Positions 12,170-40,370 of a DNA stretch of 64,000 nt are shown here, piece by piece. The stretch is from an uncultured bacterium. GTDB lineage: Bacteria > Bacillota > Clostridia > Oscillospirales > Oscillospiraceae. Numbering within the stretch: the stretch's first letter is position 1; each line of letters opens with the position of its first letter. The stretch spans positions 1 through 64,000 of the forward strand of contig CAMNQF010000011.1 of assembly GCA_946548895.1 (NCBI GenBank), written 5' to 3'. A program made the translations under genes and the position numbers. The notes under the pieces were generated by a model. That model worked only from the letters and a program-made list of their open reading frames with translations. It had not been told where the DNA came from and searched no databases.

Positions 12170-12174
12170 GCGGT

Positions 12175-12487: not shown

Positions 12488-12515
12488 TTGCAAATTTTTG
12501 CCGATAGAGTATAAT
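12488..12515 (+). promoter_or_regulatory. Promoter TTGCAA-16-TATAAT for the SLH protein gene
   Basis: Direct reading; leaves a leader of about 155 nt. Confidence 0.65.
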
Positions 12516-12675
12516 GAACGATGTATAACTGTGACGGCGGAGGCGTCAGCCAATCAATCCGATGGAGGGAGGGCCGAATGCCCGGTCACGCCCCTACGGG
12601 GGAACAAACGAAGCCAATTCTGGCATAACCCATGCATCGCGAGACCCAAATCACGAAAACAGGAGGAACAGAGAC

Positions 12676-15600: not shown

Positions 15601-17040
15601 ATCAACGGCAGCGACGGCCTGGTGAAATTAGGCCCCACTGTCACGGGCGGCCCCGATGTGATTGCTAACCGTGTGCCCGCCCTGACTTCCCTGAATTGCA
15701 AGTATGATACCCTTCAGGCAGCGATCGACGATACCGTGCGCGGCACGATTATCCAGACGACAGGCGATGTCACTGGTGTTTTGACGGAGACTATGGACAC
15801 CGTCACCATTGACGGCAAGTATACCGGCAGCGGCGCCGTCAATATGACCGGGATTGCGCGGAAGGTTTACGTGGCGGCCGAGGGCCAGCAGGACGTGACC
15901 AGCAACACCGGCAATGTAAGTGTGCAGACCCAGGGTGGCTACCGCTATCTGGTGGAGCTGAAACAGGACAACGTGGCCGCCGGCACTGTGGCCATCGCGG
16001 TCACCTCCACCGGCAACGGCACCCTGTCCGCCAACCGCAGCACCGCCAAGCCCGGCGAGATTGTCACCATTACCACTATTCCCACCACCGGTCAGGCTGT
16101 GTCCAGCATTTCCGCCAAGACCAACAGCGGCGCCAACGTGTCTGTCACCAGCACCGGCGTGGCCAACCAGTACAGGTTCACTGTGCCTCAGAACGCCACC
16201 AGCGTCACCGTGACCGCCAGCTTCGGCGTGGCTACCGCGGCCAATCTGACCATCACCAGCTCCAACTATGGCCTGGCGGCCACCAACTCCACCCAGGTTT
16301 ACGCCGGGCAGGAGGTCACCGTCACCACCACGCCGTACACGGGCTACCGCGCCACCGGCGTCACCGTCACCACCAACGCCGGTACGCTGACCGCCACCCG
16401 CACGGCCGACAACGTGTACAAGTTCACGGTGCCCGCCAACGCCACCTATGTCACCGTGACCCCCACCTTTGCCGCTGACACCGGCCTGCCCTTCGTGGAT
16501 GTGCCCGCCAACGACTTCTATCTGGACGCGGTGAAGTTTGTGTACGAGAAGAACCTGATGAACGGTATCACCGCCACGACCTTCGGCGGTTCCCGCACCA
16601 TCACCCGCGGCCAGATCGTGACGATTCTGCACCGTCTGTCCGGGAGTCCCGCTGTTTCTGGCACCAGCAGCTTCCAGGATGTGCCCGCCAATGAGTACTA
16701 CGCGACCGCCATTGCCTGGGCTGCCAACAACGGCATCGTAAATGGCCGCAGCTCCACCAGCTTTGCGCCCAACGACGCCATCACCCGTCAGGAGCTGGCC
16801 GCGATTCTGTACCGCTATACCAGCTTCCGTGGCCTGACCAACAACAAACTTGCCAACCTGAGCGGCTACACCGATCAGGGCCAGGTGGACGGCTACGCGG
16901 CCACTCCCATGCAGTGGTGCGTGGGCAACGGCATTATCAACGGCACCAGCAACACCACCCTGACTCCGCGGGGCACCGCCCAGCGTTATCAGGCGGCCAT
17001 TATGCTGATGCGCTACTGCCAGACGTTCCTGAATATGTAA
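12676..17040 (+). CDS. Large secreted S-layer protein with three C-terminal SLH domains
   Basis: Signal peptide MKKRLLSAFLALAMVLTLLPATAFA; SLH repeats FVDVPANDFYLDAVKFVYEKNLMNG, FQDVPANEYYATAIAWAANNGIVNG; AGGAGG RBS. Confidence 0.9.
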   Translation: MKKRLLSAFLALAMVLTLLPATAFAVDYTKPVTKAAPNTVTNSKTGQHFYDDSNPNSIKTVTVTRCTSTNLTEGREYGKWYWLDNQNSSTTYTYYEVDTGIVTGTSGSGQWYPDVAAYTNNTTEKVKGAFTFLGGTAPDLSAYKDTSLTIDFVGSGALTVPSTLTNLTLTAKFTETSTGSGVAAKGNVNAITTARGTYTPTEGKNGLTITATNIDFGNITMVGRANTLRLTDCEVDAISMNGETDSNAAGTNKSYNAQTINATNSTIASIAISNGNGGGVTLQDSTVTTTIGFTSDGGNIQVGGLSDTGVITVTPRTETGAYANVRITGGQVDGVTQGVQGTNDKAISITVTGTNTNFGDIDAEVNGTVNITDADGTSVTVDKGTLTIGGSGVNITGDVTVGEDDKTTLNMRATGSSFGGIKAVANKGANVIIGAWEGKRQIQGGNDYGVLDLKDYKGKKVTGGTFSGAATIIDTFVDETCLPWLDTANLQFVTTSGTNIYDLYTKDELARAISDIGTTAALQPWGITVLGQGGTSEEGGKTELILKTGQNEVARIGYNSTTPLILPEKINNMTISTWFTEANRNVSFPSGSTVNIPYQAGLTLNATGTSTAVNKITKARASAPVASSDGKPVVNQNVTVTLNGNTIHVTGAVTPNAGGVATVRVDLDTDVVDKNGTYITLEGVRLDYNVNTKVISFNAILPESALNAGALVQDGLLVLNHGTGEKYSVTANLNESASSLSIAPDTDVENSIVVTFGGKLSSMTTAQKNDLTELLSGAGTSFTYGANQAMQQAINAAQATITNNTNVESWVTNAKNTIWRQGFKSPNTTLNVNYGYVANMAPHTGNFNSATTDGGVIATAFQKAYIVPYLVVNVTDYDAAGGTLSATLTPYYRVDVSGVAYDDEKAYTVQQGRALTLSGDITSPNAANQVKVKFNLGASFATQYMHQDGKYVYKGVAGEWMISHIGSNGGLGSIVINGSDGLVKLGPTVTGGPDVIANRVPALTSLNCKYDTLQAAIDDTVRGTIIQTTGDVTGVLTETMDTVTIDGKYTGSGAVNMTGIARKVYVAAEGQQDVTSNTGNVSVQTQGGYRYLVELKQDNVAAGTVAIAVTSTGNGTLSANRSTAKPGEIVTITTIPTTGQAVSSISAKTNSGANVSVTSTGVANQYRFTVPQNATSVTVTASFGVATAANLTITSSNYGLAATNSTQVYAGQEVTVTTTPYTGYRATGVTVTTNAGTLTATRTADNVYKFTVPANATYVTVTPTFAADTGLPFVDVPANDFYLDAVKFVYEKNLMNGITATTFGGSRTITRGQIVTILHRLSGSPAVSGTSSFQDVPANEYYATAIAWAANNGIVNGRSSTSFAPNDAITRQELAAILYRYTSFRGLTNNKLANLSGYTDQGQVDGYAATPMQWCVGNGIINGTSNTTLTPRGTAQRYQAAIMLMRYCQTFLNM

Positions 17041-17071
17041 TGTTGGGAGTAACCTGACGGCATAAAGCTCT

Positions 17072-17109
17072 AAAAAACGACCGGCCGGATATCCGGCCGG
17101 TCGTTTTTT
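17072..17109. terminator. Rho-independent terminator (bidirectional)
   Basis: AAAAAACGACCGGCCGGATATCCGGCCGGTCGTTTTTT. Confidence 0.9.
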
Positions 17110-17221
17110 GCCCCGCGGTCACAAATTCTGAGAAGTTTCTTAAGATGTGGAAAACAGGCTTGCAAAGCCGCTCCGCCTGATATATGATATAGGCATTCAA
17201 AAACAGGAAGTGCTGCGGCAT

Positions 17222-18397
17222 ATGAACAAGGAATTTTTGAAAAAGATTTTTTTCCAGTCCCTGACGGGCTTTTTGTCCTTAGCCCTGGCAATTCTGCTGT
17301 TCTTTTGCATTCAGCGGATGGACCAGATCCGTCAGGGTTTCCAGTGGCTGATGGGGGTGCTGATGCCCTTCATCTACGGAGGCACTATGGCGTATTTGCT
17401 CAAAACGCCCTGCAGCTTTTTGGAAGAGAAGATTCGGGATATACTGCCGGAAAAGCATAAAAAGCAGGCCAGCATTCTGGCGGTTGTGGCGGTGCTGCTT
17501 CTCAGCGTATTGGTGCTTTATCTGCTGTTGAGCATGATTATTCCGGAGATGGCTAGGAGCATTGTCGCGCTGGCGGTGGCGGTGCCGCCCAAAGCGGAAG
17601 AGTTCACCCATTGGGTGATTGGCCATTTAGAGGGCAATGAGGCCCTGCAAAACTATGTAAATAACGCGTTTGCCAGCCTGGAGGCGTGGCTGTACAATTG
17701 GGCCACCACCGACCTGCTGCCCACCATGCAGGGAATGATGGACGGTGTGGTGACGACCGTGAGCTCCGTGTTCACCGTGATGAAGAACATCGTGTTGGGT
17801 GGGATCATCTGTATCTATCTGCTTGCGGGCCGAAAAAAATTCGCGAAGCACGGAAAAGCGCTGGTTTACGCCGTATTAAAGCCCCGGTGGGCGGAGGGAC
17901 TGCTCCGGGAGCTGGCCTTTGTGGACAAAACTTTCGTGGGATTTTTCGGCGGAAAGATTCTGGACAGCGCCATTGTTGGGGTGATCTGCTACATATTCTG
18001 CCTGATCATGACGGTTGCGGCGGGGTTCCAAAACGCGGTGCTGATTAGCGTGATTATCGGCGTGACCAACGTGATCCCCTATTTTGGGCCTTTTATCGGG
18101 GCGGTGCCCGCTGCCTTGCTGACCCTCATTTCCAGCCCCAGAAACTGCCTGATTCTGCTGATTTTTATTGTGATTTTGCAGCAATTTGATGGAAATGTGT
18201 TGGGCCCCAGATTGCTGGCGGACAGCGTGGGGCTCAACGGCTTCTGGGTGCTCTTCGGAATTACGCTGTTTGAGGGGCTGTTCGGCTTTGTGGGCATCCT
18301 GGTGGGGGTTCCAGTTTTTGCCGTCATCTATGATCTGGTGCGGCGGTGGATTTTGGCCGGCCTCCGAAAGCATGACAAGATGGACGTTTTGGAATAG
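17222..18397 (+). CDS. AI-2E family transporter
   Basis: MNKEFLKKIFFQSLTGFLSLALAILLFF; VTNVIPYFGPFIGAVPA motif. Confidence 0.9.
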   Translation: MNKEFLKKIFFQSLTGFLSLALAILLFFCIQRMDQIRQGFQWLMGVLMPFIYGGTMAYLLKTPCSFLEEKIRDILPEKHKKQASILAVVAVLLLSVLVLYLLLSMIIPEMARSIVALAVAVPPKAEEFTHWVIGHLEGNEALQNYVNNAFASLEAWLYNWATTDLLPTMQGMMDGVVTTVSSVFTVMKNIVLGGIICIYLLAGRKKFAKHGKALVYAVLKPRWAEGLLRELAFVDKTFVGFFGGKILDSAIVGVICYIFCLIMTVAAGFQNAVLISVIIGVTNVIPYFGPFIGAVPAALLTLISSPRNCLILLIFIVILQQFDGNVLGPRLLADSVGLNGFWVLFGITLFEGLFGFVGILVGVPVFAVIYDLVRRWILAGLRKHDKMDVLE

Positions 18398-18399
18398 GG

Positions 18400-18437
18400 A
18401 AAAAAGGCCGCCCGGACAATGTCCGGGCGGCCTTTCC
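18400..18437. terminator. Rho-independent terminator
   Basis: AAAAAAGGCCGCCCGGACAATGTCCGGGCGGCCTTT. Confidence 0.85.
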
Positions 18438-18446
18438 GCAAATGCA

Positions 18447-20111
18447 TCAGCGGTAGCGAGCGGTTGCCTTTAACTTAAACCGATTGGTCTGATCCTCCAG
18501 CAGATGGACCTGATCGAACAATTCGGTGCTGACTGCGGCGGACTCCTCGCTGCTCGCGGAGTTGGTCTGAACCACGGAGGAGATTTGCCCAATGCCCTCG
18601 GACACCTGGGCCAGAGAGTCCGCTTCCTGGTGAATGGCCTCCGCGATGGTTTCAATGGCCCTGTTGGACTGCACCACCAGATCCATGGCTTTCTTCAGGG
18701 AGTCGGATACCTCGCCCACAATGTCGGTGCCCCGGCGGGTGGCCTGGATGGAGTTCTCAATGAGGCCCTTGGTGGCCTTGGCGGCCTCGTCGGATTTGGA
18801 CGCCAAGCTGCGCACTTCATCGGCCACCACGGCAAAGCCCTTGCCGGCGGCGCCGGCCCGGGCGGCCTCCACCGCCGCGTTCAGCGCCAGAATGTTGGTC
18901 TGGAAAGCGATATCCTCGATGGTGGCAATGATGCGGCCGATCTGCTGGGAGGCGTCGGAAATGTTCGCCATAGCGGCCACCATCTCTTCCATCTGCCGGC
19001 TGCTCAACGTGACCTGCTCGTTGGTGAGCCGGGCGCTGTCCTGGGCGTCGGCAGCGGCCTGGGCGTTGCGGCCGGCGCTCTTGGACAGGTCATCCACCGT
19101 GGCATAGAGTTCCTGCACCGCGCTGGCCTGCTCCGTCGCACCCTGGGCCAGGGCCTGGGCGCCGCTGGACAGCTGCTCGGCGTGGCTGCTCACGCGCTGT
19201 TCCGCCTGGCCAATGTTGCCCAGCGCGTCAGAGATGGCGGAGGTAAAGGTATTCAGCGCCACTTCGATGGACTGGAAATCGCCAATGTATGGAGTAGAAA
19301 CGGACACGTCGAAATTACCCCCGGCCAGCTCGCCCATAATGCGGTTGATGTCCTCCACATATTGGCGGATGCGGCCCACCGAGTCCTCCAGGGTCTGGGC
19401 CAGCTGGCCCAGCTCATTCTTGGAAGTATAGTTCAATTGCAGGTTCAAATCGCCATCCTGAAGGGGTTTGGTCCGCTCCGTGATGAGGAGCAGGGGCTGG
19501 ATGACGTGGCGCATAATGAACACCACCAGGCTGATCAGGGCGATCAGGTTAAGCACAAGGCAGATCACGGTGAGGGTGTGCATGAGGGCGATGGTGCTGC
19601 TCATGCGCTGGGCGCAGCTATTGCTCAGGACACTGCCCCGCTCCACCACCTGGTCCAGCAGGCCCACCAGGGTGGTGAGGTTTGCCTGGATGGTCTCTTG
19701 ATAGTACTGCTGGGCCTGAATCCGGCTGTTGGCGAACATATTCAGGGCAGTGCCCGCGGAGGCGTGGAGTTCCCGGTGGAGGGGCTCAATTTCGGCGCGC
19801 AGCCGGTCGATCTCATCGTCATGCAAGTCGATCTCACTGTACAGCCACTTGCCCAGGACGCAGCCGGTATGGTCCATGCTGCCGGTGAACTCCGTCCCGG
19901 CGTACAGGGCGTTGCTCAGGTTGGCCGACCACTTGTAGTGGGCCACCTCCGCCCGCTGGGCGCTGTCCAGCAGGGCGCTGGCCTGGACGTTTTCGGCCTG
20001 AGTGCCCTCAATGCGCAGAATGTTTAGGGTGGTCACGCCGCTGAACAGCGCCACCGCGACAATGGCGCAGATGACGCGTATGTTGACCGATCTTTTGATA
20101 CTTTTACCCAT
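18447..20111 (-). CDS. Methyl-accepting chemotaxis protein with extracytoplasmic CZB-like domain
   Basis: HAMP; MCP hairpin IATIEDIAFQTNILALNAAVEAARAGAAGKGFAVVADEVRSLA; HYKW...HTGCVLGKW...H...H between two TMs. Confidence 0.92.
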   Translation of the reverse strand: MGKSIKRSVNIRVICAIVAVALFSGVTTLNILRIEGTQAENVQASALLDSAQRAEVAHYKWSANLSNALYAGTEFTGSMDHTGCVLGKWLYSEIDLHDDEIDRLRAEIEPLHRELHASAGTALNMFANSRIQAQQYYQETIQANLTTLVGLLDQVVERGSVLSNSCAQRMSSTIALMHTLTVICLVLNLIALISLVVFIMRHVIQPLLLITERTKPLQDGDLNLQLNYTSKNELGQLAQTLEDSVGRIRQYVEDINRIMGELAGGNFDVSVSTPYIGDFQSIEVALNTFTSAISDALGNIGQAEQRVSSHAEQLSSGAQALAQGATEQASAVQELYATVDDLSKSAGRNAQAAADAQDSARLTNEQVTLSSRQMEEMVAAMANISDASQQIGRIIATIEDIAFQTNILALNAAVEAARAGAAGKGFAVVADEVRSLASKSDEAAKATKGLIENSIQATRRGTDIVGEVSDSLKKAMDLVVQSNRAIETIAEAIHQEADSLAQVSEGIGQISSVVQTNSASSEESAAVSTELFDQVHLLEDQTNRFKLKATARYR

Positions 20112-20340
20112 ATGGAAAAGTCCCCCCTCTTGGTTGTTTTGACGTGCGCGGCTCTTGCCGTGCAAACCGCCCTGTCATGTCCGGCGGAATGCCGCCGAAA
20201 GCATACGATGTCTTTTTTATTATATACCAAGACGGACCTGATTGCAACAGGAAGAACGGCATACAAAAAGATGCAGAAATTCCCATCCGGCGAGGCAGGA
20301 AAGGGGGCCGGGCGCGAAAGGCCCCGTCCTCCCCAAAGAA

Positions 20341-20580
20341 TCACAGCTGCCGGTACATGGCCTCCGCGCCCGCCTTGCCCACGATGTCGGCGGTGGACAG
20401 AACCTCCACCTGAATGAGCTTTTCGCCAAATTTCAGCTCTAAAATGTCCCCGGTTTTCACATCATAAGACGCCTTCACCGGCCTGCCGTTGGCGGTCACC
20501 CGCCCGGCGTCGCAGGCCTCGTTGGCCACGGCGCGCCGCTTAATGAGCCGGGAGACCTTCAGCCATTTATCTAGCCGCAT
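20341..20580 (-). CDS. S4 domain RNA-binding protein (HslR/YabO-like)
   Basis: [36 protein letters not shown]. Confidence 0.88.
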
Positions 20581-20605
20581 AGTATACCTCCACAATTGCG
20601 CAAAA

Positions 20606-20632
20606 TGAGGCAGGGCCCATTGCCCTGCCTCA
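20606..20632 (-). terminator. Rho-independent terminator after HU
   Basis: TGAGGCAGGGCAATGGGCCCTGCCTCA followed by TTTTG on the minus strand. Confidence 0.65.
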
Positions 20633-20643
20633 CCGAATGAACG

Positions 20644-20919
20644 TCAGCCAGCCACAGTATCCTTCAGGGCCTTGCCGGCCTTGAACACGGGCACCCGGGA
20701 CGCGGGGATCTCGATCTGCTCCTTGGTGTGGGGGTTGCGGCCCATGCGGGCGGAGCGGCTCTTTACCTCGAAGGAGCCAAAGCCCACCAGCTGCACCTTC
20801 TCGCCCTGCACCAGGGACTCGGTGATGGCGTCCACCACGGCGGCCACGGCGGCGTCGCTGTCCTTCTTGGACAGGCCGGTCTTCTCCGCCACGGCGGCGA
20901 TCAGTTCGGTTTTGTTCAT
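20644..20919 (-). CDS. HU-family DNA-binding protein
   Basis: [54 protein letters not shown]. Confidence 0.95.
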
Positions 20920-21029
20920 TATTTCTCTTCCTCCTAAAATTTGTGTGGTCAGGCGGGGCACAAAGGCCAGGTCCTCCCCTTGCGGCATCGCCGCGTATAT
21001 ACTTAAAGCGCGGCGTGGCGCTGTAAGTG

Positions 21030-21845
21030 TCATGCCAACTCCTCTTTGGCTGCGTTCCACAGGGTTAACTGCTCCCCGTCGGACAGCTCGTCCAGTTTTA
21101 CGCCAAGCTCTGCCGCCCCCTCCTCCACATTGCGGAACAGGCGGGCAAACCTGTCACAGGCGGCGTGGAGAGCCTCCTCTGGGTCGGCTTTCAGGTGCCA
21201 TGCCACCCACACGGCGGCAAAGAGCAGATCGCCCAGTGCCTCCACCGGATTACCCGCTGTCTCCGGGAATACGTCCCCCTCCAGAGCGGCTACTTCCAGA
21301 TTGCCCAGTTCATCGGACAGCTTCTCCATCGCGCTGCCGATATCCCGCCAATAAAAACCTGCCTTGGCGGCTTTCTTGTTCATCTTCTCCGCCCGCCACA
21401 AAGCGGGCAGGGTGCGGGCCACGGCGTCCACCGCGTCGGCCTGGGTATCCTGGTGCTTTTCCTTCTTTTTCAGCTCTTCCCAGTTGGAGAGGACTTCCTC
21501 GGTGGAGCGAACGTTCACTTCCCCAAAAACGTGGGGGTGCCGGTAGATCAGCTTCTTGCACACCCCGTCCGCCACGTCGTCCAGCGTGAACCGGCCCGCG
21601 TCCTCCTCAATGGAGGTGTGAAAATACACCTGAAGAAGCACGTCTCCCAGTTCCTCCTTGAGGCCGTCCACATCACCGTTGTCAATGGCCTCCGCCGCCT
21701 CGCAGGCCTCCTCAATAAAGTTGCGGCGGATGGACTGGTGGGTCTGCTCCTGGTCCCAGGGACAGCCCCCCGGGTGGCGCAGTACCCGGACCAGTTCCAT
21801 CAGGTCCTGGCTGTTATAACTTTTTTTCGAAGTCCAATTTACCAT
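21030..21845 (-). CDS. mazG: Nucleoside triphosphate pyrophosphohydrolase MazG
   Basis: [34 protein letters not shown]. Confidence 0.93.
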
Positions 21846-21914
21846 AGTATCACCTGAATTGCAAGGTTTTTTTCCCGCGGACGCAGATTATTCCCGTTTT
21901 TTTCTGAAAAAGCT

Positions 21915-23588
21915 TCACTCGACCCGGAGAATCCGGGCGATTTTGTCTCCCTTGGGGATGAGGGACAGGTCGTCCCGGGAGATGGCGCGGGTGACGAGGA
22001 TGAGGGCGAAATAGACGATCACCGCCACGCCGATGGCCGCCAGCACGGACAGGGCGTTGCCTGTGCCGCTGAGAGCCATGGCGGTGGAGCCGTCCGGCAG
22101 GAGCTCCTCCGTTTCGGTTACAAAAATCTTCAGCGCCAGCATGGCCTTGTTCGCCAGCCCGTTCACCGCCCAGGCGGTCAGCCCCATGGCCGCCGACGCG
22201 GCCACCGGCTTGACGAACACCCGGCTCAGGCTCAGGGAGCGGGGCAGGGTACGCCAGATGATGAACAGGTCCAGCAGGGCGATGATCCAGAAGCAGGCCA
22301 CCGTGCTGATGGCGCCGCCCTTGACGCCGATGTCCGGGTTGCCGATGAGGAAATAGCCCACCGCCAGCTTCAGCGCGCAGCCGATGACGGTGGTGGCCAT
22401 GGGCAGGGCCACCATGCGGTAGGCCTGGAGGACGGAGTTGCACACCAGCATGAAGCACACCGCCACGGAGGCCACCCCCAGCACGGACAGCATCCAGCCC
22501 CCCAGCGCCACGTCGGTGCCGGGGTAAAGCAGACGCATAATGGGCTCCCCCAGCACGAACAGCCCCACCCCGGCGGGTATGGCCAGCAGGGCGGTGGTGC
22601 GCAGGGTGGTTTCGCTGATCTGGGCGGCCTGGCGGCGGCGCTTCACCTTCAAGGCGGCGGACACGTGGGGGATGACGCTGGCGGTCAGCGGCACCATGAA
22701 GGAGGCGGGCAGGTTGTACAGGGTCAGGGCCTTGTCATACACGCCCTTGGTCTCCCGGGCCGCGTCCAAGGTGAGGTTCAGAGCGTCCTGGAGCTGCCCC
22801 AGCAGGATGCGGGAGTCCAAAATGTTGGTCAGGGCGATAACGGAGGAGCTCAGGGTGATGGGAATGGCCAGCTTGGCCAGGGTGGCCAGAATGGTGCGGG
22901 AATCCTCCGGCTCGTCGGTGCTGCCGGGCAGGGTGCGCAGGTGCCGGCGGTAGCAGATATACACGTACAGGGCGCCCAGGGCGCAGCCCACCGACACGCC
23001 CAGGATGGCCCCGGCGGCGGCCAGCGCCTCGTCCTTCATCTGGGTTTTGAAGAAGGAGGCCAGGGCCAGGCCGATGACCAGCTTGCACAGGGCTTCGATG
23101 ATCTGGGACACCGCGGTGGGGGTCATGAGGGCGTGGCCCTGGAAATAGCCCCGGTAGGCGGACAGGGGGCAGATGAAGAACACCGCCGGTGCCAGGGCCA
23201 GGATGCTGTAGGCGGCCTGGCTGTCCCGCATCAGGTCGGCCAGCTGGTGGGGGAACACGGCCATCACCAGGAAGCTGATGGTGCCCAGCACGCAGAAGGC
23301 GGCCATGGACAGCTGGAATACCCGCTTTACCTGGTTGCCCCGGCCCACGGCGTTGGATTCGGACACCATCTTGGACAGGGCCACCGGCAGGCCGCCGGTG
23401 GAGATGATGATGAGCAGGGAGTAGATGTTGTAGGCGGTGTTGAAGTCGGCGAAGCCCGCGTCGGACAAAATGCCGCCCAGGGGGATTTTGTACAGCGCCC
23501 CGATGAGCTTCACAATGATGACGCCCGCCGTCAGAATTCCGGCGCCGCCGAAGAAGGAGTTCTTTTTTGGTGTGGATGCAGAAGACAT
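21915..23588 (-). CDS. Putative polysaccharide/lipid flippase, SpoVB/MOP family
   Basis: 14-TM-like; GILTAGVIIVKLIGALYKIPLGGILSDAG; synteny spoVB-mazG-HU-S4. Confidence 0.88.
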   Translation of the reverse strand: MSSASTPKKNSFFGGAGILTAGVIIVKLIGALYKIPLGGILSDAGFADFNTAYNIYSLLIIISTGGLPVALSKMVSESNAVGRGNQVKRVFQLSMAAFCVLGTISFLVMAVFPHQLADLMRDSQAAYSILALAPAVFFICPLSAYRGYFQGHALMTPTAVSQIIEALCKLVIGLALASFFKTQMKDEALAAAGAILGVSVGCALGALYVYICYRRHLRTLPGSTDEPEDSRTILATLAKLAIPITLSSSVIALTNILDSRILLGQLQDALNLTLDAARETKGVYDKALTLYNLPASFMVPLTASVIPHVSAALKVKRRRQAAQISETTLRTTALLAIPAGVGLFVLGEPIMRLLYPGTDVALGGWMLSVLGVASVAVCFMLVCNSVLQAYRMVALPMATTVIGCALKLAVGYFLIGNPDIGVKGGAISTVACFWIIALLDLFIIWRTLPRSLSLSRVFVKPVAASAAMGLTAWAVNGLANKAMLALKIFVTETEELLPDGSTAMALSGTGNALSVLAAIGVAVIVYFALILVTRAISRDDLSLIPKGDKIARILRVE

Positions 23589-30500: not shown

Positions 30501-33500
30501 TTAGCTCTCCTTGCCCTTTTTCCGGCCGAGGAGGGTCATGACCATCAGGCCCAGCGCGGACAGGATGGACGCGCCGTACCAGCCCAGCGGGGTGTCGCCG
30601 GTCTGGGGAATGTCGCTCAAGGGCACGTCGGGGTCCTCCAGCTCCAGCTCTTCCGCCTTCTCGGGCTCCGCGGGGATCTCGGCCAGGGGAAGGTCGGGCT
30701 CGTCGAGGGGGACCTCGGGGTCGTCAAGGGGAACCTCGGGATCGTCCGGGTCCTTCGGCGTGGGCGTGTTGCTGGGGTCCTCGTCGCCGGGTTTGCTGCT
30801 GGGGTCGGGATCGGGGTCGGTGCTGGGAGTGGGGGTGGGATCGGGGTCGGTGCTGGGGGTGGGCGTGGGATCGGGATCGTCGGGCTTGGTATAGGTGTTG
30901 TTGAACACGATTCCGTTCTCGGCCTTCACGTAGCTGACGGCGCCGTCCCCGCTGACAACCTCCACCAGGATCTCGGGCTCGCCGATGGACAGGGTCTCCA
31001 TGGTCACGGTGTCCTTGCCCAGCTTGACCTCTTCGACGGTCCGGGTGATCTTGATGACCACCTTGTACTGAGTGCCGTCATAGGTGACGTTTTCCTGGCC
31101 GTCGTTGACCTCGCTCACAAAGAACACGAACTCCTTTTCGAACTCGTCCTCGTCGAACTTCACATTGTTGAAGTACTCGGGCGGGAAGTTGAACACGGCC
31201 TTGCCGCTCTCGTTGTTGGTGACGCTGCCGCCCTCCACAAGGTTGCCCTCCGCGTCCCTCATCTCGAAGGTGAAGGTCTTGTTGGCGATGCTGACGCTGT
31301 CGTCATTGGACTCCAGGTTCTTGGTCAGTTCGGTCTCAGAGGGCTTGCTGTTGGTGCCGCTCATGGGGCCCTCGCCGATGGTCAGCACGCCGTTGTTGGC
31401 GATGCCGCCGCCGTGGCTGTTGGCGGACAGGTTGCCGGCGATAATCACGCCGCCCTGCATGGCCTGGACGGCCTTCTGCACGGACTCCTGATCTGGTTTG
31501 GCGGTCAGGAACACCAGGCGGTTGCCGTAGACCACGCCGTTGTTGTCCTCGGTGACCTCGGTCAGCTCGAAGATATAGTTGCCGTTGCTGTCCTTTACGG
31601 GAGTGCCTTTCTCATCGGTCACGTAGCAGTAGGTGTAGCCCTTCCAGTTGGCGGTGCCGCCGTTGGCGCCGGGCAGGTTGTTGCTGACGAGGATGCCGGC
31701 GGTGCCCTGAGCGTTCGCGGCCACGTTGGGGTTGCTGAAGCTGGCGTGGAAGCTGTCGCCCGCGGCGAAGATGTCCTGGCCCATATCCTTGAGGATGTCC
31801 TTGGCGGAAGCCCAGTAGGTGTAGCCGTCAATAAAGCTGCCGTTGTAAACGCCCTCAGTGACCTCATGGCCCTGGGTATGGCCCTGGCCCAGGGCGGTGT
31901 TGCCGGTGATGACGGCGCCCTCGAGGGCGTACACGTAGGTCTTGCCGTGGACGCAGGCGGCGATGCCGCCGCCCATGCCGTTGGCGGTGTTGCTGGTGAT
32001 GATGGCGTTCTTCAGGGTCAGAACGCCGTCGGACTCAATATAGATGCCGCCGCCGCCCAAGTCCTCATAGGTATAGGTGGCGTTGTTGGTGATGGCGCCG
32101 CCGGTGATGGTGCCCTCGCCCTTGACATACACGCCGCCGCCCTCGCCGGTGACGGCGGTGTTGCCGTCGATGGCGCCGCCGGTCATCTGGAACTCGCCGG
32201 ACGTATAAGGGCCGCTGCCGTTGACCTTGTCGCGGTCCACAAAGACGCCGCCGCCTTCGCCGGCGGTGTTGCCGCTGATGGCGCCGCCGCTCATAGCGAA
32301 GCTGCCGCCGGGGCCCACGGCTACGCCGCCGCCCTGGCCGATGGGTTCATCCTTGTCGTCACGCTTCGTGGTGTCGGTGCTGTTGCCGGAGATGGCGCCG
32401 CCGGTCATCTCGAACTTGCCGTTGTTGCCGACGTAGACGCCGCCGCCGTTCTCACTCGCGGTGTTGCCGTCAATGGAGCCGCCGGACATGGTGAACTGGC
32501 CGTTGTTTTCCACCAGCACCCCGCCGCCGTTGGTTGCGGCCTGGTTGCCGGAGATGGCGCCGCCGGACATATTCAGCTGGCTGTTCCCGCCGCTGACATA
32601 GACCGCGCCGCCGCCGTAGGCGTTGCCGCCGGACAGGGTGCCGCCTTTCAGGTTGACGGTTCCGTTTGTCACCATGATGAGCCGGAGGTTGCTGCCGCCA
32701 GACTCCCCGCTGATCCCGCCTCCGCCGATGGCGTCCTCGATGTTCAGCGTCTGTCCGCCGTTCACCAGAATGGCAACGTCGGCGCGCTCGTTGCCCTTAA
32801 CGTCTAGGCCCGCGTGGTTGCCTGTGCCATACTGGTAGCCCAGGACCTGGCCGTTGAGGATCAGGGTGATCTCATTGTCCTTGCCGCTGTTCAGGACCTC
32901 CTTCAGGGCCTCCTGAAGGGTCTTTTCCGTAGCCTGGCCATCGACAACGGCTTTGTTCTCAAAGCACGCCGCGGTGTGGGTATGTGCCTCCAGCTCGCAG
33001 ATCAGGACCTTCTGCTCCTCGGCCTCGCCGTAGCACTCCTCGGTGTGCTCATGGGCGGGGACCTCCTCCAGGGTGCACAGCAGCTGGCCCCGCACCTTGG
33101 CGTAGCACTCCTGGGTGTGCTTTTCCTCGGGCAGGTCGGACTGGGTGCAGATCAGCTTCTTGCTGGTGGTGCAGGCGTCGGTATGGGTGTGCTCCTCCAG
33201 GGAGCAGGTCATCTGGCACGCGCTGCTGTGGGTGTGCTCCGGGATCGCGCAGTCCTCCCCGCAGCTGTCATCGTGCTGGTGCTCCGCGGCATCGCAGGTC
33301 TTTTGGCACGCGTCGCTGTGGGTGTGCTCCTCTTTGGGGCACTGCAGGGTGGTTGCCGCGTAGCACCCCAACTCCTCGCTGTGGGTGTGCCCGGCTGCCG
33401 CGTGGTCGCAGACCAGCTCGGTGCCGTAGCTCCACGCGTAGCAGCCGTCGGTGTGGGTGTGGCCCTCGGCGGTCATCCCGCAGATCAGGGGCCGCACCGT

Positions 33501-33656
33501 CTGGATCTCATAGCAGTCTTCGCTGTGCACGTGTTCGGTAGTCGTACAGGTCAGTTTGGCTTCCACCGTCGCCGCAAAGGCGCTCATGGGCAGGAGGGAG
33601 ACGATCAAAGCCAGAGCCAGCGGCCAAACACATACGCGCTTGATAATGGTTTTCAC
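30501..33656 (-). CDS. Sortase-anchored surface adhesin: His/Cys repeats, beta-helix, pilin isopeptide-like domain, IPQTGD sorting signal
   Basis: GTG start; signal peptide; ten C-x-HxH-x-C units; GGGVYVxNNGxFxMTGGAIxGN repeats; C-terminal DIPQTGDTPLGWYGASILSALGLMVMTLLGRKKGKES. Confidence 0.88.
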   Translation of the reverse strand: MKTIIKRVCVWPLALALIVSLLPMSAFAATVEAKLTCTTTEHVHSEDCYEIQTVRPLICGMTAEGHTHTDGCYAWSYGTELVCDHAAAGHTHSEELGCYAATTLQCPKEEHTHSDACQKTCDAAEHQHDDSCGEDCAIPEHTHSSACQMTCSLEEHTHTDACTTSKKLICTQSDLPEEKHTQECYAKVRGQLLCTLEEVPAHEHTEECYGEAEEQKVLICELEAHTHTAACFENKAVVDGQATEKTLQEALKEVLNSGKDNEITLILNGQVLGYQYGTGNHAGLDVKGNERADVAILVNGGQTLNIEDAIGGGGISGESGGSNLRLIMVTNGTVNLKGGTLSGGNAYGGGAVYVSGGNSQLNMSGGAISGNQAATNGGGVLVENNGQFTMSGGSIDGNTASENGGGVYVGNNGKFEMTGGAISGNSTDTTKRDDKDEPIGQGGGVAVGPGGSFAMSGGAISGNTAGEGGGVFVDRDKVNGSGPYTSGEFQMTGGAIDGNTAVTGEGGGVYVKGEGTITGGAITNNATYTYEDLGGGGIYIESDGVLTLKNAIITSNTANGMGGGIAACVHGKTYVYALEGAVITGNTALGQGHTQGHEVTEGVYNGSFIDGYTYWASAKDILKDMGQDIFAAGDSFHASFSNPNVAANAQGTAGILVSNNLPGANGGTANWKGYTYCYVTDEKGTPVKDSNGNYIFELTEVTEDNNGVVYGNRLVFLTAKPDQESVQKAVQAMQGGVIIAGNLSANSHGGGIANNGVLTIGEGPMSGTNSKPSETELTKNLESNDDSVSIANKTFTFEMRDAEGNLVEGGSVTNNESGKAVFNFPPEYFNNVKFDEDEFEKEFVFFVSEVNDGQENVTYDGTQYKVVIKITRTVEEVKLGKDTVTMETLSIGEPEILVEVVSGDGAVSYVKAENGIVFNNTYTKPDDPDPTPTPSTDPDPTPTPSTDPDPDPSSKPGDEDPSNTPTPKDPDDPEVPLDDPEVPLDEPDLPLAEIPAEPEKAEELELEDPDVPLSDIPQTGDTPLGWYGASILSALGLMVMTLLGRKKGKES

Positions 33657-33937
33657 AAATATCTTCCTTTCTTTGCATTCACGGACGCAAAGTATCCGGT
33701 GACCGAACGAGCGTAGGGCGGATGGGTCCGCCCCGTAGCCTCTGGTTTTGCCGTCCCGGCGTTTCCGCCGGTTTGCCGGATTGCAGCCGAACGAGCATGG
33801 CGCGGGAAACGCGCCGAAGCCTTCTGGCTTTGCGTCCCATTGTTTCCAATGGTTTGCCGTCGCACCTCAATCGCTCCCCCGCCGGCGGCGGCGCGTGTGC
33901 CGGCGGGGTGCGCCCACGGCGGATCCGTCCTGTTCAT
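33653..33937 (-). CDS. Possible 94-aa leader ORF running through both aptamers and overlapping the adhesin start
   Basis: AAAGGAGG RBS then ATG; stop TGA overlaps the GTG start of the adhesin (TTGTGA); could be coincidental. Confidence 0.35.
   Translation of the reverse strand: MNRTDPPWAHPAGTRAAAGGGAIEVRRQTIGNNGTQSQKASARFPRHARSAAIRQTGGNAGTAKPEATGRTHPPYARSVTGYFASVNAKKGRYL
33694..33781 (-). ncRNA. c-di-GMP-I (GEMM)-like aptamer, copy 2 of tandem (start-codon proximal)
   Basis: Reverse complement ATCCGGCAAACCGGCGGAAACGCCGGGACGGCAAAACCAGAGGCT...CTCGTTCGGTCACCGGAT; P1 ATCCGG/CCGGAT. Confidence 0.65.
33781..33872 (-). ncRNA. c-di-GMP-I (GEMM)-like aptamer, copy 1 of tandem (distal)
   Basis: Reverse complement CGGCAAACCATTGGAAACAATGGGACGCAAAGCCAGAAGGCT...CTCGTTCGG matches the GEMM core GGCAAACC-stem-GAAA-stem-GGGACGCAAAGCC. 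Confidence 0.7.
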
Positions 33938-33955
33938 GGGGACTGCCTCCTTTCT

Positions 33956-34386: not shown

Positions 34387-37300
34387 ATGAAACCAGCAAG
34401 GCGATTGATTTCCGGAGCGCTCGGCCTGGCCATGGCGTTCTCCCTGTGGGCGGGCGCGCTGCCCGGTGCCCAGGCCGCGCCCGCCGCGCCGGCGGGACAG
34501 GCCCAGGCCCTCACCGGGTCCATCGGGCTGACCCTTCGGTTCGACCTGCCCCAGACGGCGGCGAACGCGGCTGACCGGGAGATTGCGCTCCAGGTCAGCG
34601 GCCCCGGGGGCACGGCGTCGGTGGCCCTGCCCGGCGGGGCCCTGACGTCCAACTCCCTGGGGGCCCAGGCTGCCGTCCTGGTCAAAAATGTGGACGGCGT
34701 GGAGCTGACCTCCGAAACCCGCGTGGGCTATTATGAGGTGGAGCTGTCCGGCCTGCCCGCCGGCGGGGCGCGGTATACCCTCACCCTCACCGGGACGGGG
34801 TACAAGACCTACTCCACCGGCGTCACCCTGGACGGGTACAGCCGCCACGTGATTGTGGGCACCGGGGACGGCACCTTCTCCCTGGGCGATATCGACGGGA
34901 ACGGCGCGGTGGACGCCGGGGACCTAAACGCCTTTGAACCGTTCCTGGGTGATGGGGATACGGCCGAAGGCTTTGACCTGAACGGCGACGGCCAGGTGGA
35001 CGTGACCGATCTGGCCTATGTGAACCACAACCGGGGGATCTCGGGGGAGTCCCAGGTGCTGGACGCCGCCGCCATTGTCAGCCCCAGCGTGGATACGGCG
35101 GGGCTGTCCGTCAACGGCCAGGTGGCGGATCTGTTCCGGGACGGGGGCGTGGTGGCCCTGGCCCCTGCGGCGGGGGACGGCGGTCCGGCCATCCCCATTG
35201 AGCTGGCCCAGCCCGTGGAGATGAGCCGGATTCAGATCACCTGCCCCGAGGGGAACGGCGCCATCCGGGCGGGCGAGGCGGTTGTGGAGCTGGACGGCGG
35301 CTCCACCCTCCGCGTGCCCTTTGACGTGTCCCTCCCGGAGGGGGTCCACGCCATCGGCCGGACGGCGGGCCAGCGGGTGGTCACCGTTGACCTGGGCAAA
35401 AAGGTGGCGGTGAAGAAGGTCACCATCCAGGTGACGGCCACTGACGGCCCGGAGGGCTACGCCGCGGTGACAAAAATCGAGTTCCTGAAAGATATCGTGC
35501 CGGAGAATCCCAAGAACGACGCCGACCAGGCGAAGGGCCTGGCCGCCGCCCCGGGGGACGGCCAGGTGGTCCTGACCTGGAACGCGGTGCGCAACGTGAC
35601 GGGCTACACGGTGGCCTACGGCGAGAGCGCCGGCGACCTGTCCAGAACCTCCTCCGTCAACACCAACCGGGCGGTGATCTCCGGCCTGGAAAACATGAAA
35701 ACGTATTATTTTCAGGTCACCGCCGTCAACGGCGGCTGGCGGGGCACGCCCTCCGAGGTGGTGTCCGGCACGCCGGAGCCGGGTAAAATCCCCGGCGCGC
35801 CCTCCAATATCCGGGTGACCGCCTCCGACGAGTCCCTGCGCTTGAGCTGGGGCTCCACCAAGGACGCCACCTATTACCAGGTATTCTACCGGGAGGCGGG
35901 CCAGAGCGCTTTCCGGCAGTTCGGCGGCAATCTGAGCGGCACCTCCGCCGCCATCACCGGCCTTACCAACGGCACCACCTACCAGGTGGCGGTCAAGGCG
36001 GGCAACGGCAAGGGCGTGGGGCCCTACTCCGCCATCGCCGCCGGTACCCCCCGGCGGGAAACCCTGGAGCTGCCCCCCCTGCCGGAGGAGGACCGCATCG
36101 ACAACAGCATGGTCCAGTCGGTGGTCATGGAGAACCCGGGCAATGTGGACCTCACCCGATGTCCCCGGTTTACCACGGCGGACGTGCTGGACGGCGACGG
36201 CTCCACCTTCTGGATCGCCCAGAGCTGGAGCCTCAGCAGCCGGTTTACCTACACCTTCCGGGAGCCCCAGGACATGAATTACGCCGTCCTGGTGCCCTGT
36301 CTCAGCGGCAACTACAAGTATGCCCTGCGCAGCTACACCGTCTCCGCCAAAAACAGCGCGGGCGAGACGGTGCTGGAACAGGCCCTGTACCCCGCCGCCC
36401 GCATGGACGGGGGGAAGAACTACCTGGTGCTCACCTTCCCCATGACCAAGGGGGTGAAGGAGCTGTCCATCACCCTGAACGAGTGGGAGGGCAACGGCTG
36501 CCGGGTGAGCGTCTCCGAGATGGCATTCTACAAGAGCGATTCCCTGGCGGACGACATCGCGGCCCTGTTCACCGACGGGTCCTTCACCGCCCTGCGGCCC
36601 GGCGTGGACGCGGAGCGGACCGGCGCCCTGTCCCAGCGGCTGGAGGCCAGGGCGGACTTCTACCTGGACCTGGCCCGCCTGCGGGATGAGCTGGACCTGG
36701 CGAAAAACCTGCTGGCGGGTGCGGACGGCGCCCTGGGCGTGGTCCGGGACAGCGTGCAGAGCCGCAGCGCCGCCAGGGACAGCCAATACGGCCAGGGGGC
36801 CAGCGACCTCCAGCCCCTGGGCGTCACCGCCCGGGCGGGGGCCGTGGCGGCCGTCTACGCCCAGCTGCCCTCCGACGCGCCGGTCTACGTGGTGCCCACC
36901 CAGTTCTACGGCGAGTCCGGCGTGTGGCGCGGCGCCCCCATCCAGCTGGTGAACGGCCGCAACTACATCACCGTGCCCCAGATCGGCTCCCTCACCGACG
37001 AGCGGGGCGGCCCCCTCTACCTGGCCTACGCCGGGGACCATCCCGAGCAGATCCGCATCCAGGTCCGGGGGGACGAGAATGTGTTCGCCATGCCGGTGCT
37101 GGAGCTGTCCGGCTGGTATGATATGAGCGAATCCGCCCGCCGGGAGGCCATCCGGGCCTATGTGGTCCAGCTCCAGGCCTACGTGTCTGCCCTGAACAGC
37201 GCCGCCCTGGGGGTGGATGTGCGCAACGCCACCGAAATCTCCACACCCAGTGTGCTGCTGTCCATCCCCGCCGACCGGGCGCTGGCCGGACTGCGGGGGG

Positions 37301-39234
37301 TCAACGGCTCGGTGGACCAGATGGCGGAGACCATGTACCAGGATGTGCTGGCCTGGGAAGAGGAGCTCTTTGTGGCCAACAAGGTCCAGGGCATCATCGC
37401 TTCCGACGCCCAGCTGAACGGCTACCGCTATCCCATGACCACCCGCCAGAACATTCGGTATATGCGGATGTTCGCCGGGGCCTTCATGTACGCCGCCGGG
37501 AACCACGTGGGCGTGGGGTACGGCTCTACCTCCGGGCTGATGTCCGGCAGGACCTCCGCCGCCGCGGGGGAGGGCCGGGCCAACGGCCTGTTCGGCTGGG
37601 GCATCGCCCATGAGATCGGCCACAACATGGACAAGCTGGGCAAGGCGGAGATCACCAACAACATCTACTCCCTGGCCATCCAGGCCTGGGACGGGGGCTC
37701 CATGGCCTGGCCCACCCGCCTGACTATCAGCAATATCTGGCCCGCCGTCTTTGAAAAGACCGCCGCGGCCCGCCCCGGCGCCGCGGGCAACGTGTTTGTC
37801 CAGCTGGGGATGTACTGGCAGCTCCACCTGGCCTATGACCAGGCGGACCGGCCCCTGGATTTCTTCAACCGCTTCTTCCGCAGCTGGAAGGCGGGGGAGT
37901 ACGGCGGCTACAGCTATGACGAGCGGGTGGCCCTCATCGCCTCCAAGACCGCCAGCCGAAACCTTGCCCCCTTCTTCACCCGCTGGGGCCTGACCCTCAG
38001 CCAGGAGGTGAAGGACCTGCTGGCCCAGTATGACCCGGAGCCCCGGGCCGTCTGGTACCTCAACGACGACGCCTACGCCTACCGCCTGAAGGGCGGCGCG
38101 GCCTTTGAGGGTGGGGCGGAGGTCTCCGCCGCGGTGGAGGACAACCAGGTCCGGCTGACCATCGCGGGCGGCAATGAGTCCGTGCTGGGCTACGAGGTGC
38201 TGCGGGGCGGAAACCCCGTGGGCTTCATCACCCGGAATGACGCCGGGGAGACGGTGTATACCGACGACCTGGGCGCCGCCAACAACCTGACCTACTCCTA
38301 CTCCGTTGTCCCCGTGGACAAGCTGGGGAATGCGGGGAAGGCCGCCGCTCCCGTGGAGGTCCGGGTGGCCTATGACAAGGCCATTCGGGACGATTTGTAC
38401 ACAGCGGCCCGGGACGGGAATGTGGTAACCATCACCATGAAGGGGAACCCGGTTCCCGTCACCGGCGTGAAAATCACCGGGACGGCGCTGGACGGCGGTT
38501 ACAAGGTGGAGCTGAAGGCCAGCCCCGAAGCGGCCTGGACCACCGTCAAGCAGGGGGCCCTGTCCGGCGGCACGGTGGTGGAGTACTTTGCCAAGCCCGG
38601 CGCGGAGGACGGCGACGCCCGCATCTGGACCTATGACGCGGCGGCCCTGCGGATCACGGGCGTGCCGGAGGGGGCCTCGGTGGTTCCGCTGGACTACCCC
38701 GGCGACCGGGTGGACTTCTATGAGGACGCTTTTGTGGGCCTGCTCAAGGAGGACTGCCGGTACGCGGAAGGGGAGGACGGCGTGATCCCCAAGGGCACGG
38801 TGGTGGTTCTGGGCACCTACCGGGGCGACCCGGTGTACAACACCGTGGAGATTCAGGCCCGCTACAGCACCACCCCGGAGGCGGGAGAGGCCACCGAGGC
38901 GGGGGCCACCTTTAAGGAACAGCCCATGAACGGCTACGCGGTGCTCTTCGCGGAGATCCCCAAGGACGGCGCGGTGAGCGACACCAGCGACGGTTTCTGG
39001 ATCTTTGTGCCCGACTGGGAGAAGGAGGACGCCTTCCTGCGGGAGCTGCTCAAGGAGGAGGAGCTCCCCGGCGGGGGAGAGGTCGTCCACAGCCCGGCGG
39101 AAATCCGGGCGGTGTTCTACCGCAACGACGACCCGGAGGACAGCGCCAGCCGCCGGGAGACCAGCCAGACCCTGTGGATCAGCTTCCCGGAGCGGGCCAG
39201 CCTGCCCGAGATTGAGCTGAAGGGCGGAAATTGA
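34387..39234 (+). CDS. Secreted M60-like (enhancin/mucinase-type) metalloprotease with dockerin and fibronectin III domains
   Basis: Signal peptide; GDIDGNGAVDAGDL...FDLNGDGQVDVTDL dockerin pair; two FN3-like domains; GWGIAHEIGHNMDKLG HExxH site. Confidence 0.88.
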   Translation: MKPARRLISGALGLAMAFSLWAGALPGAQAAPAAPAGQAQALTGSIGLTLRFDLPQTAANAADREIALQVSGPGGTASVALPGGALTSNSLGAQAAVLVKNVDGVELTSETRVGYYEVELSGLPAGGARYTLTLTGTGYKTYSTGVTLDGYSRHVIVGTGDGTFSLGDIDGNGAVDAGDLNAFEPFLGDGDTAEGFDLNGDGQVDVTDLAYVNHNRGISGESQVLDAAAIVSPSVDTAGLSVNGQVADLFRDGGVVALAPAAGDGGPAIPIELAQPVEMSRIQITCPEGNGAIRAGEAVVELDGGSTLRVPFDVSLPEGVHAIGRTAGQRVVTVDLGKKVAVKKVTIQVTATDGPEGYAAVTKIEFLKDIVPENPKNDADQAKGLAAAPGDGQVVLTWNAVRNVTGYTVAYGESAGDLSRTSSVNTNRAVISGLENMKTYYFQVTAVNGGWRGTPSEVVSGTPEPGKIPGAPSNIRVTASDESLRLSWGSTKDATYYQVFYREAGQSAFRQFGGNLSGTSAAITGLTNGTTYQVAVKAGNGKGVGPYSAIAAGTPRRETLELPPLPEEDRIDNSMVQSVVMENPGNVDLTRCPRFTTADVLDGDGSTFWIAQSWSLSSRFTYTFREPQDMNYAVLVPCLSGNYKYALRSYTVSAKNSAGETVLEQALYPAARMDGGKNYLVLTFPMTKGVKELSITLNEWEGNGCRVSVSEMAFYKSDSLADDIAALFTDGSFTALRPGVDAERTGALSQRLEARADFYLDLARLRDELDLAKNLLAGADGALGVVRDSVQSRSAARDSQYGQGASDLQPLGVTARAGAVAAVYAQLPSDAPVYVVPTQFYGESGVWRGAPIQLVNGRNYITVPQIGSLTDERGGPLYLAYAGDHPEQIRIQVRGDENVFAMPVLELSGWYDMSESARREAIRAYVVQLQAYVSALNSAALGVDVRNATEISTPSVLLSIPADRALAGLRGVNGSVDQMAETMYQDVLAWEEELFVANKVQGIIASDAQLNGYRYPMTTRQNIRYMRMFAGAFMYAAGNHVGVGYGSTSGLMSGRTSAAAGEGRANGLFGWGIAHEIGHNMDKLGKAEITNNIYSLAIQAWDGGSMAWPTRLTISNIWPAVFEKTAAARPGAAGNVFVQLGMYWQLHLAYDQADRPLDFFNRFFRSWKAGEYGGYSYDERVALIASKTASRNLAPFFTRWGLTLSQEVKDLLAQYDPEPRAVWYLNDDAYAYRLKGGAAFEGGAEVSAAVEDNQVRLTIAGGNESVLGYEVLRGGNPVGFITRNDAGETVYTDDLGAANNLTYSYSVVPVDKLGNAGKAAAPVEVRVAYDKAIRDDLYTAARDGNVVTITMKGNPVPVTGVKITGTALDGGYKVELKASPEAAWTTVKQGALSGGTVVEYFAKPGAEDGDARIWTYDAAALRITGVPEGASVVPLDYPGDRVDFYEDAFVGLLKEDCRYAEGEDGVIPKGTVVVLGTYRGDPVYNTVEIQARYSTTPEAGEATEAGATFKEQPMNGYAVLFAEIPKDGAVSDTSDGFWIFVPDWEKEDAFLRELLKEEELPGGGEVVHSPAEIRAVFYRNDDPEDSASRRETSQTLWISFPERASLPEIELKGGN
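34885..35037 (+). other. Dockerin type I-like domain inside the M60-like protein
   Basis: Two Ca-binding F-hand motifs DxDGNGxVDxxDL and DLNGDGQVDVTDL. Confidence 0.75.
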
Positions 39235-39248
39235 GGAGGATTGCGCCG

Positions 39249-40370
39249 ATGAAACGGATTTTTTCTCTGCTGCTGGCCGCCGCGCTGGCCGCCGGACTGC
39301 TGATCAGCCCGGCGGCGGCCGCCTCCGCCCCCTGGGTGCGGATCGACGGGCGGGGGACGAACAGCCAGACGGTGACGGTCCAGGGCCTGTCCGGCAGCTA
39401 TAACGGCGTGCAGCTCACCCTGAACCTGAACAAGGCCCCGGAGAGCTTCCAGTTCGACCAGGCCCTGTCCGGCGGCGGCACCTACGCCACCAGCGCCCTG
39501 GACGGCGCCAGCATCACCGTTTACGTGGCCTCCCGGGGCCCCCTGAACCAGGGCGGGGCCGTCTCCCTGGGGGTGCTGCTGGGGAGCGAGAGCTTCCAAG
39601 TGCTGTCCGTCACCAATGTGAAGCTGCTGGAGATCAGCCCGGACGGGGCGGCGGAGTCCTCCTTCGGCCAGGTGAGCGTCAGCAGCGGCTCCGGCGCCGG
39701 CGGCACAGGGGGCGGCACATGGACCCCCGGCACCGGCTCTGGAAATGGAGATGGCACGGGCACGGGGACCGGCGGCGGGACTGGCTCGGGCGGCGGCGGG
39801 ACAGCCGGGACGGTTTCCCTGCCCTTCACCGATGTGCGGGAGGGGGACTGGTTCCGCCCGGCGGTGGCTTACGTCTACGGCGCGGGGCTGATGAACGGCA
39901 CCGGGCCCAACACCTTCACCCCCGGCGGGACCACCACCCGGGGCATGATCGTCACCATCCTCCACCGGCTGGAGGGCTCCCCGGCGGCGTGGGGCGGGTC
40001 CTTCCCCGACGTGGCCCCTGGGCAGTATTACTCCCAGGCGGTGGCCTGGGCCGCCGCCAACGGCATCGTCAACGGCTATGACACCGGCCTGTTCAAGCCG
40101 GACGCCAGCATCACCCGGGAGCAGATGGCGGCGATCCTCTACCGCTACGCCGCCTACAAGGGCTACAGCGTCACCGCCCGGGCGGACCTGTCCGCCTACG
40201 CCGACGCGGGGCAGGTGAGCAATTACGCCCTGGACGCCATGTCCTGGGCCAACCAGGCCGGGCTGATTACCGGCTCGGGCAGCAGCCTGCTTCCCGGCGG
40301 GGACGCCATCCGGGCCCAGTCCGCCGCCATCCTGATGCGCTTCTGCCGGAATGTGGCCGGCATGAACTAG
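39249..40370 (+). CDS. SLH-domain surface protein with cohesin-like N-terminal domain
   Basis: Signal peptide; beta-rich N-terminus (NGVQLTLNLN...ASITVYVASRGPLNQGGAVSLGVLLGS); Gly/Thr linker; SLH repeats FTDVREGDWFRPAVAYVYGAGLMNG. Confidence 0.8.
   Translation: MKRIFSLLLAAALAAGLLISPAAAASAPWVRIDGRGTNSQTVTVQGLSGSYNGVQLTLNLNKAPESFQFDQALSGGGTYATSALDGASITVYVASRGPLNQGGAVSLGVLLGSESFQVLSVTNVKLLEISPDGAAESSFGQVSVSSGSGAGGTGGGTWTPGTGSGNGDGTGTGTGGGTGSGGGGTAGTVSLPFTDVREGDWFRPAVAYVYGAGLMNGTGPNTFTPGGTTTRGMIVTILHRLEGSPAAWGGSFPDVAPGQYYSQAVAWAAANGIVNGYDTGLFKPDASITREQMAAILYRYAAYKGYSVTARADLSAYADAGQVSNYALDAMSWANQAGLITGSGSSLLPGGDAIRAQSAAILMRFCRNVAGMN

Follow-up and report, generated by a model that had tools for sequence, protein, structure and literature searches.

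The stretch of DNA considered here, called the window below, is the 64,000-nucleotide (nt) segment of contig CAMNQF010000011.1 (assembly GCA_946548895.1) from an uncultured bacterium of the Oscillospiraceae. Its minus strand encodes a secreted adhesin, whose leader is composed, in this order, of a short open reading frame (ORF) with its own Shine-Dalgarno sequence (SD) and ATG, a GC-rich hairpin, two class I cyclic di-GMP (c-di-GMP-I) aptamers, a compact element, and the SD of the adhesin (positions 33953-33654). Comparison of this leader with related sequences indicates that it is probably a multi-aptamer c-di-GMP-I riboswitch, in which two canonical aptamers placed in series feed a single translational platform. 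A first-pass annotation had proposed tandem c-di-GMP-I aptamers upstream of a sortase-type adhesin. The adhesin assignment holds, with an FctA isopeptide domain and a C-terminal IPQTG, and the tandem aptamers were correctly recognized, whereas the platform-free abutting junction between them, the 5' pseudoknot, the upstream ORF (uORF) with its pause motif, and the 3' pseudoknot platform had been missed. The features are as follows:

About 33953-33654, minus strand: whole element, from the SD of the uORF to the GTG of the adhesin, a larger extent than first proposed
33935-33953, minus strand: uORF SD AAAGGAGG (33953-33946) and ATG (33937-33935), predicted from the sequence and similarly placed in 63 of 89 non-redundant arrays
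33914-33922, minus strand: CCG CCG TGG, a Pro-Pro-Trp (PPW) pause motif (MNRTDPPWAHPAG...) with codon-like conservation
33877-33908, minus strand: conserved 5' hairpin upstream of unit 1, with stem 33908-33899/33886-33877 and loop 33898-33887
33861-33895, minus strand: putative 5' pseudoknot between loop CGCGCC (33895-33890) and GGTGCG (33866-33861) in the 5' flank of unit 1, with covariation in 64 arrays
33779-33868, minus strand: c-di-GMP-I aptamer unit 1, with G20 at 33858, A47 at 33831, and C92 at 33783
33695-33787, minus strand: c-di-GMP-I aptamer unit 2, with G20 at 33777, A47 at 33749, and C92 at 33699
33671-33698, minus strand: putative H-type pseudoknot (3' platform), with stem 1 CGGA (33698-33695)/TCCG (33685-33682) and stem 2 CTTTGC (33692-33687)/GCAAAG (33676-33671), found in 108 arrays and scoring 61.6 bits with our platform model (R1)
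33654-33670, minus strand: adhesin SD AAAGGAAG (33670-33663), immediately 3' of platform stem 2, and GTG start (33656-33654)
30501-33656, minus strand: secreted adhesin of 1051 amino acids with an FctA domain (PF12892; NF033073 is just under its cut-off) and an IPQTG sorting signal

The two aptamer units and their junction

With the Rfam model RF01051 (gathering cut-off, 35 bits), unit 1 scored 64.0 bits over its full length (1-87) and unit 2 scored 47.4 bits, also at full length; the E-value of 3.3e-10 in the window is not that of a chance match. The stems quoted in the first-pass annotation are present and differ between the units by compensatory changes, with CCATTG/CAATGG versus CCGGCG/CGCCGG in helix P2 and GGCGCG/CGCGCC versus GGGCGGA/TCCGCCC in P3, and the P2 loop is GAAA, a GNRA loop, in both. 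The sequence said to be shared by the units is found in each of them, except that unit 2 carries an additional G (GACGGCAAAACC). It had also been suggested, from the CTCGTTCGG 3' half, that a variant class was at hand. The Rfam model aligns from end to end, however, the feature corresponds to a P3 subtype common in relatives, and both units retain the ligand contacts G20, A47, and C92, as read off the Rfam alignments in a numbering that we take to follow the Vc2 structure. Because of these canonical contacts, a variant ligand class was ruled out for the window.

Only 5 nt, AATCC (33782-33778), lie between C92 of unit 1 and G20 of unit 2, and neither a terminator nor an SD is found in this junction. 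The two Rfam matches overlap by 9 nt, and a window-wide scan lists unit 1 alone, apparently because only the best of the overlapping matches in a clan survives. Such hiding of neighboring units seems to recur in relatives, so that fused arrays are probably undercounted by standard Rfam scans. The same two-unit leader is also found ahead of a related adhesin in another species (locus L057).

Related arrays and the elements flanking the aptamers

A search of GTDB species genomes with the platform pattern yielded at least 119 stretches, most of them from Oscillospiraceae- and Lachnospiraceae-type records; a few matches in other phyla are evidently due to chance. Among the matches listed, 69 of 82 (80 loci) were preceded by one or more aptamer cores. 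When relatives were searched with RF01051, some genomes of the genus proved to have two to four units abutting in a row, and other genomes had no such runs. Of the 42 genomes searched in the genus, 12 contained matches to the platform model, all of them located at the 3' end of c-di-GMP-I units; in the family, the model matched 9 of 201 genomes. A sample of 392 taken across the class gave a convincing match in the window's own genome only; two other class-wide matches (E-values of 0.0016 and 0.017) are devoid of aptamers and look like chance. De-duplication left 108 arrays with one (19), two (55), three (26), or four (8) detected units, as counted by a strict finder that misses some units (e.g., unit 2 of L052), and the largest array, at one locus, has five core matches. 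Linkers are 1-11 nt long in most arrays, 2-5 nt being the commonest length. These fused arrays apparently constitute a widespread, undescribed family in gut Clostridia, with one platform near the ribosome-binding site of a secreted-protein gene.

The platform has the consensus CGGA-NN(N)-CTTTGC-R-TCCG-N(3-13)-GCAAAG-AAAGGAAG, its end touching the SD, and its CGGA begins at the nucleotide that directly follows C92 of the last aptamer. Among the 108 arrays, stem 1 is CGGA/TCCG in 106, CGGG/TCCG in one, and CAGA/TCTG, a compensatory change, in another (L221); stem 2 is identical in 106 and shows G-U variants in the remaining two. In all, variation amounts to one double change (L221), three G-U variants, and a shifted pairing in the diverged copy L233. 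CTTTGC is also complementary to the GCAAAG of the aptamer core, and CTTTGCGTCC matches GGACGCAAAG of unit 1 as its perfect antisense. The idea that the switch consists solely of extended antisense pairing with the core is nevertheless weakened by CTTTGCATCC platforms, by GCAAAA cores, and by L233, in which the antisense match is lost, yet GCTG can pair with CAGC beside the SD. In our view, the local pseudoknot is the better supported partner of CTTTGC, pairing with the aptamer core being possible. In another diverged platform (L196), two GCAAAG copies lie ahead of the SD, the first of which could be a decoy.

At the other end of the arrays, the 5' pseudoknot is supported by covariation. In 64 non-redundant arrays its pairing score was 877.5, compared with a mean of 605 (standard deviation 32, maximum 700.5) after the partners had been swapped among arrays, which gives a z of about 8.5 in a comparison that removes relatedness only in part. 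The signal persists at identity cuts of 60% and 50%, as well as against letter-shuffled and reversed flanks. Co-changing partners include TAGCCCCA/TGGGGCTA, GGTCC/GGACC, AGCGTCA/TGACGCT, GCATTG/CAATGC, and CTGTGCC/GGCACAG, and because they are so varied, inheritance alone is an unlikely source of the covariation. Among the P1 helices, support was found for those of internal units, built from consecutive linkers (none of 1000 shuffles reached the observed score). The first unit's own P1 (z of 0.76) and a helix that would close the array as a whole (z of 1.0) were unsupported across arrays, as was, in general, the last unit's own P1 (59 of 1000 shuffles reached the observed score). The linkers of four Lachnospiraceae-type arrays (L085, L091, L125, and L145) are AT-rich and in part palindromic (TAATTAATTA-like), which could allow adjacent units to compete for P1.

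The uORF follows the pattern M-x(2-6)-PP-[W/G] across arrays, with its SD and ATG 60-140 nt upstream of unit 1. A Pro-Pro pair occurs in frame in 48 arrays, the two alternative frames having 34 and 5, a count that is not decisive by itself. When the Pro codons were aligned on Trp, in an alignment selected on the Pro-codon/TGG pattern, positions 1 and 2 held 1.16 and 1.29 bits in one codon and 1.66 and 1.71 bits in the other, and the third positions 0.42 and 0.14 bits; at the sequence level, this variation restricted to the third position is a coding signature. The stop and the length of the uORF vary among arrays, some of which have no recognizable PP uORF, and the four Lachnospiraceae-type arrays have another 5' region, with PPD or PPG instead of PPW. 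In the window, the hairpin stem starts 5-6 nt past the Trp codon, and the PPWxxPA spacing recurs in arrays. Given this distance and the size of the ribosome footprint, a ribosome paused with the second Pro in its P site would have its leading edge close to the base of the hairpin. PPW, PPG, and PPD are listed as strong pausing motifs dependent on elongation factor P (EF-P) (PMC4739656), and PPW and PPG pausing has been tested in Bacillus subtilis (PMC11381351).

Downstream genes and genomic setting

Apart from a few truncated or open ones, the reading frames downstream of the arrays begin with a signal-peptide-like sequence, and the domains that recur among 42 scanned downstream proteins are SLH, MucBP, List-Bact repeats, FctA, and TED. 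GGDEF proteins were found in 12 of 12 genomes of the genus with a platform and in 15 of the 30 others (p = 0.003). The window's own genome encodes GGDEF proteins, an EAL-like match, and six sortase matches, and it contains a second fused array (L037, C3:36951-37377), with three units and the same platform, ahead of another secreted-protein gene.

The same genome also has a conventional c-di-GMP-I tandem (L036, C1:46253-46572), which, like L223 and L236, shows a terminator-like hairpin after unit 1 and an apparent anti-SD arrangement after unit 2. These conventional tandems precede genes for other secreted proteins and coexist with fused arrays. The region 34387-40370 (plus strand), divergent from the adhesin gene, encodes a 1615-amino-acid M60-type peptidase, which carries fn3, F5/8 C, and dockerin-like domains, and after it an SLH-domain protein. 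Positions 12001-22000 have a G+C content of 0.58-0.61, as opposed to about 0.65, and may have been acquired. In 20 of 64 testable loci (L071, L078, L099, L105, L118, L120, L121, L129, and others), a gene for a small AP2-like protein (YIDGTCVEMLRAKTVRKNNTSGVPGV-W...CFKGKRYYLGSY; PF00847, 28.7 bits, just under the cut-off) lies directly upstream of the array, about 130-270 nt from unit 1, with which it may be co-transcribed.

Candidate mechanism, alternatives and significance

In the riboswitch that we favor, ligand occupancy would order the fused aptamers, the last of which would hand its state to the platform through CGGA, used as a substitute for the 3' strand of P1. CTTTGC could take as its partner either the GCAAAG next to the SD or the copy in an aptamer core, and c-di-GMP would favor the pseudoknot at the SD, which would lower adhesin translation. 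Several sensors acting on one platform should give a steeper response, and the 5' pseudoknot could be gated by a ribosome that pauses at PPW, where it would abut the base of the 5' hairpin. As to the direction of the switch, we lean weakly toward OFF, a choice to which we give roughly even chances.

Several observations weigh against this scheme. The platform stems are nearly invariant, so that their covariation support comes down to very few changes, a scarcity explained by the very high conservation, and most of the 108 loci were collected by an exact pattern or a model for the platform motif itself. Many arrays lack a perfect antisense match to the aptamer core, owing to CTTTGCATCC platforms and to GCAAAA in the cores of last units. 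In nested folding with the aptamer fixed, local CTTTGC/GCAAAG pairing rose only from 0.44 to 0.55 and mean SD accessibility stayed at 0.69, so that no direction was predicted. Finally, unit 2 of the window could form its own P1 (ATCC, 33781-33778, with GGAT, 33697-33694), as could its counterparts in a few other arrays (L057, L121, and L202), and this helix would compete with stem 1 and favor an ON switch. The same element would then work in the opposite direction, the ligand allowing unit 2 to form its P1, or otherwise breaking stem 1, so that the pseudoknot dissolves and the SD is freed. Adhesins are usually induced by c-di-GMP, in keeping with such a switch. A tandem c-di-GMP-I riboswitch of Bacillus thuringiensis turns transcription on (PMC4759541). 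Given that the P1 of last units is without support across arrays, we see the ON switch as a real possibility, albeit not the favored one.

The single-platform riboswitch might also integrate more than one signal. In arrays with two or more units, 86 of 89 first units carry G at position 20, while among last units 46 have G, 31 have A, and 12 have C, a difference with a p of about 1e-12 if relatedness is ignored. To our knowledge, C20 has no Rfam variant name. A20 is the signature of the c-di-GMP-I variants that bind cyclic AMP-GMP (cGAMP) (PMC9481103), and G20A structures of c-di-GMP-I have been described (PMC6274999); both units of the window have G20 instead. Among last units elsewhere, A or C at this position is a sequence feature hinting at graded or mixed ligand specificity. 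No sign of a Hypr-type cGAMP synthase was seen among the sampled GGDEF proteins, and since these keep the canonical Asp, A20 may reflect a change in affinity and not another ligand. One could conceive of ribosome-gated sensors with multiple inputs, in which aptamer 1 reads c-di-GMP and later A20 or C20 units read another or weaker signal (3',3'-cGAMP or an unknown dinucleotide), joint occupancy and the PPW-paused ribosome setting one pseudoknot that controls a surface-protein regulon of gut Clostridia; this extension is speculative, and we consider it rather improbable.

Still less likely, in our opinion, is that the leader is mainly a ribosome-pausing attenuator, in which translation (EF-P, proline supply) would be sensed by the PPW uORF and the 5' pseudoknot, with modulation by the aptamers. 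The codon signature of the uORF, the strength of the PPW motif, the start of the hairpin stem 5-6 nt past the Trp codon in the window, and the recurrent PPWxxPA spacing speak for it, but neither the length nor the stop of the uORF is conserved, arrays without a recognizable PP uORF exist, and the most conserved parts are the aptamers and the 3' platform.

Tandem c-di-GMP-I riboswitches are common, with 347 doublets and 12 triplets classed as having multiple platforms (PMC9481103), and a 2025 survey treats them likewise (PMC12452182). The window could accordingly contain two ordinary, pseudo-cooperative riboswitches with one platform each, as in the Bc3-5 triple tandem of B. thuringiensis, which also has several c-di-GMP-I aptamers in one 5' untranslated region (PMC4759541), and as in L036, L223, and L236. 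This is very improbable, however. A terminator follows each aptamer in Bc3-5, whereas the 5-nt junction of the window leaves no terminator or SD-masking platform after unit 1, short linkers are the rule in related arrays, which lack internal platforms, and control is probably translational. Finally, a 94-codon frame is open from 33937 to 33653, its stop overlapping the adhesin GTG, but the idea that it encodes a real protein, the aptamer-like pattern being incidental, was ruled out, since in L057 and L052, two close relatives, the uORF ends within unit 1 or ahead of it, and since conservation past the PPW region tracks RNA pairing and not codons.

The favored arrangement, homologous aptamers in series followed by a single expression platform, is that of the tandem glycine riboswitch, from which the arrays differ by their ligand class, by their number of aptamers (one to five), by the pseudoknots at both ends, and by the uORF. 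The units themselves share with RF01051 the aptamer sequence and structure, the GNRA loop, and the ligand contacts; what sets the arrays apart is that the 5' flank of the first unit pairs with an upstream hairpin, that the 3' flank of the last unit is part of the platform pseudoknot, and that the linkers are so short. Riboswitches with several aptamers and one platform have been listed for a few classes, namely glycine, guanidine-II, and NAD+-I (PMC9481103), and no description of a fused one-platform c-di-GMP-I form was found in the literature searchable without subscription. If our interpretation is true, the arrays would provide a c-di-GMP-I example of this design, in which as many as five aptamers are combined with pseudoknots on both flanks and with a pause-motif uORF. 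Cultured strains carry such arrays, those with A20 units being exemplified by Oscillibacter sp. 1-3 (L073) and Acetatifactor muris DSM 23669 (L125 and L135), which makes the direction of the switch, its cooperativity, and the meaning of A20 and C20 directly testable. The arrays would, apparently, control the surface proteome of common gut Clostridia.
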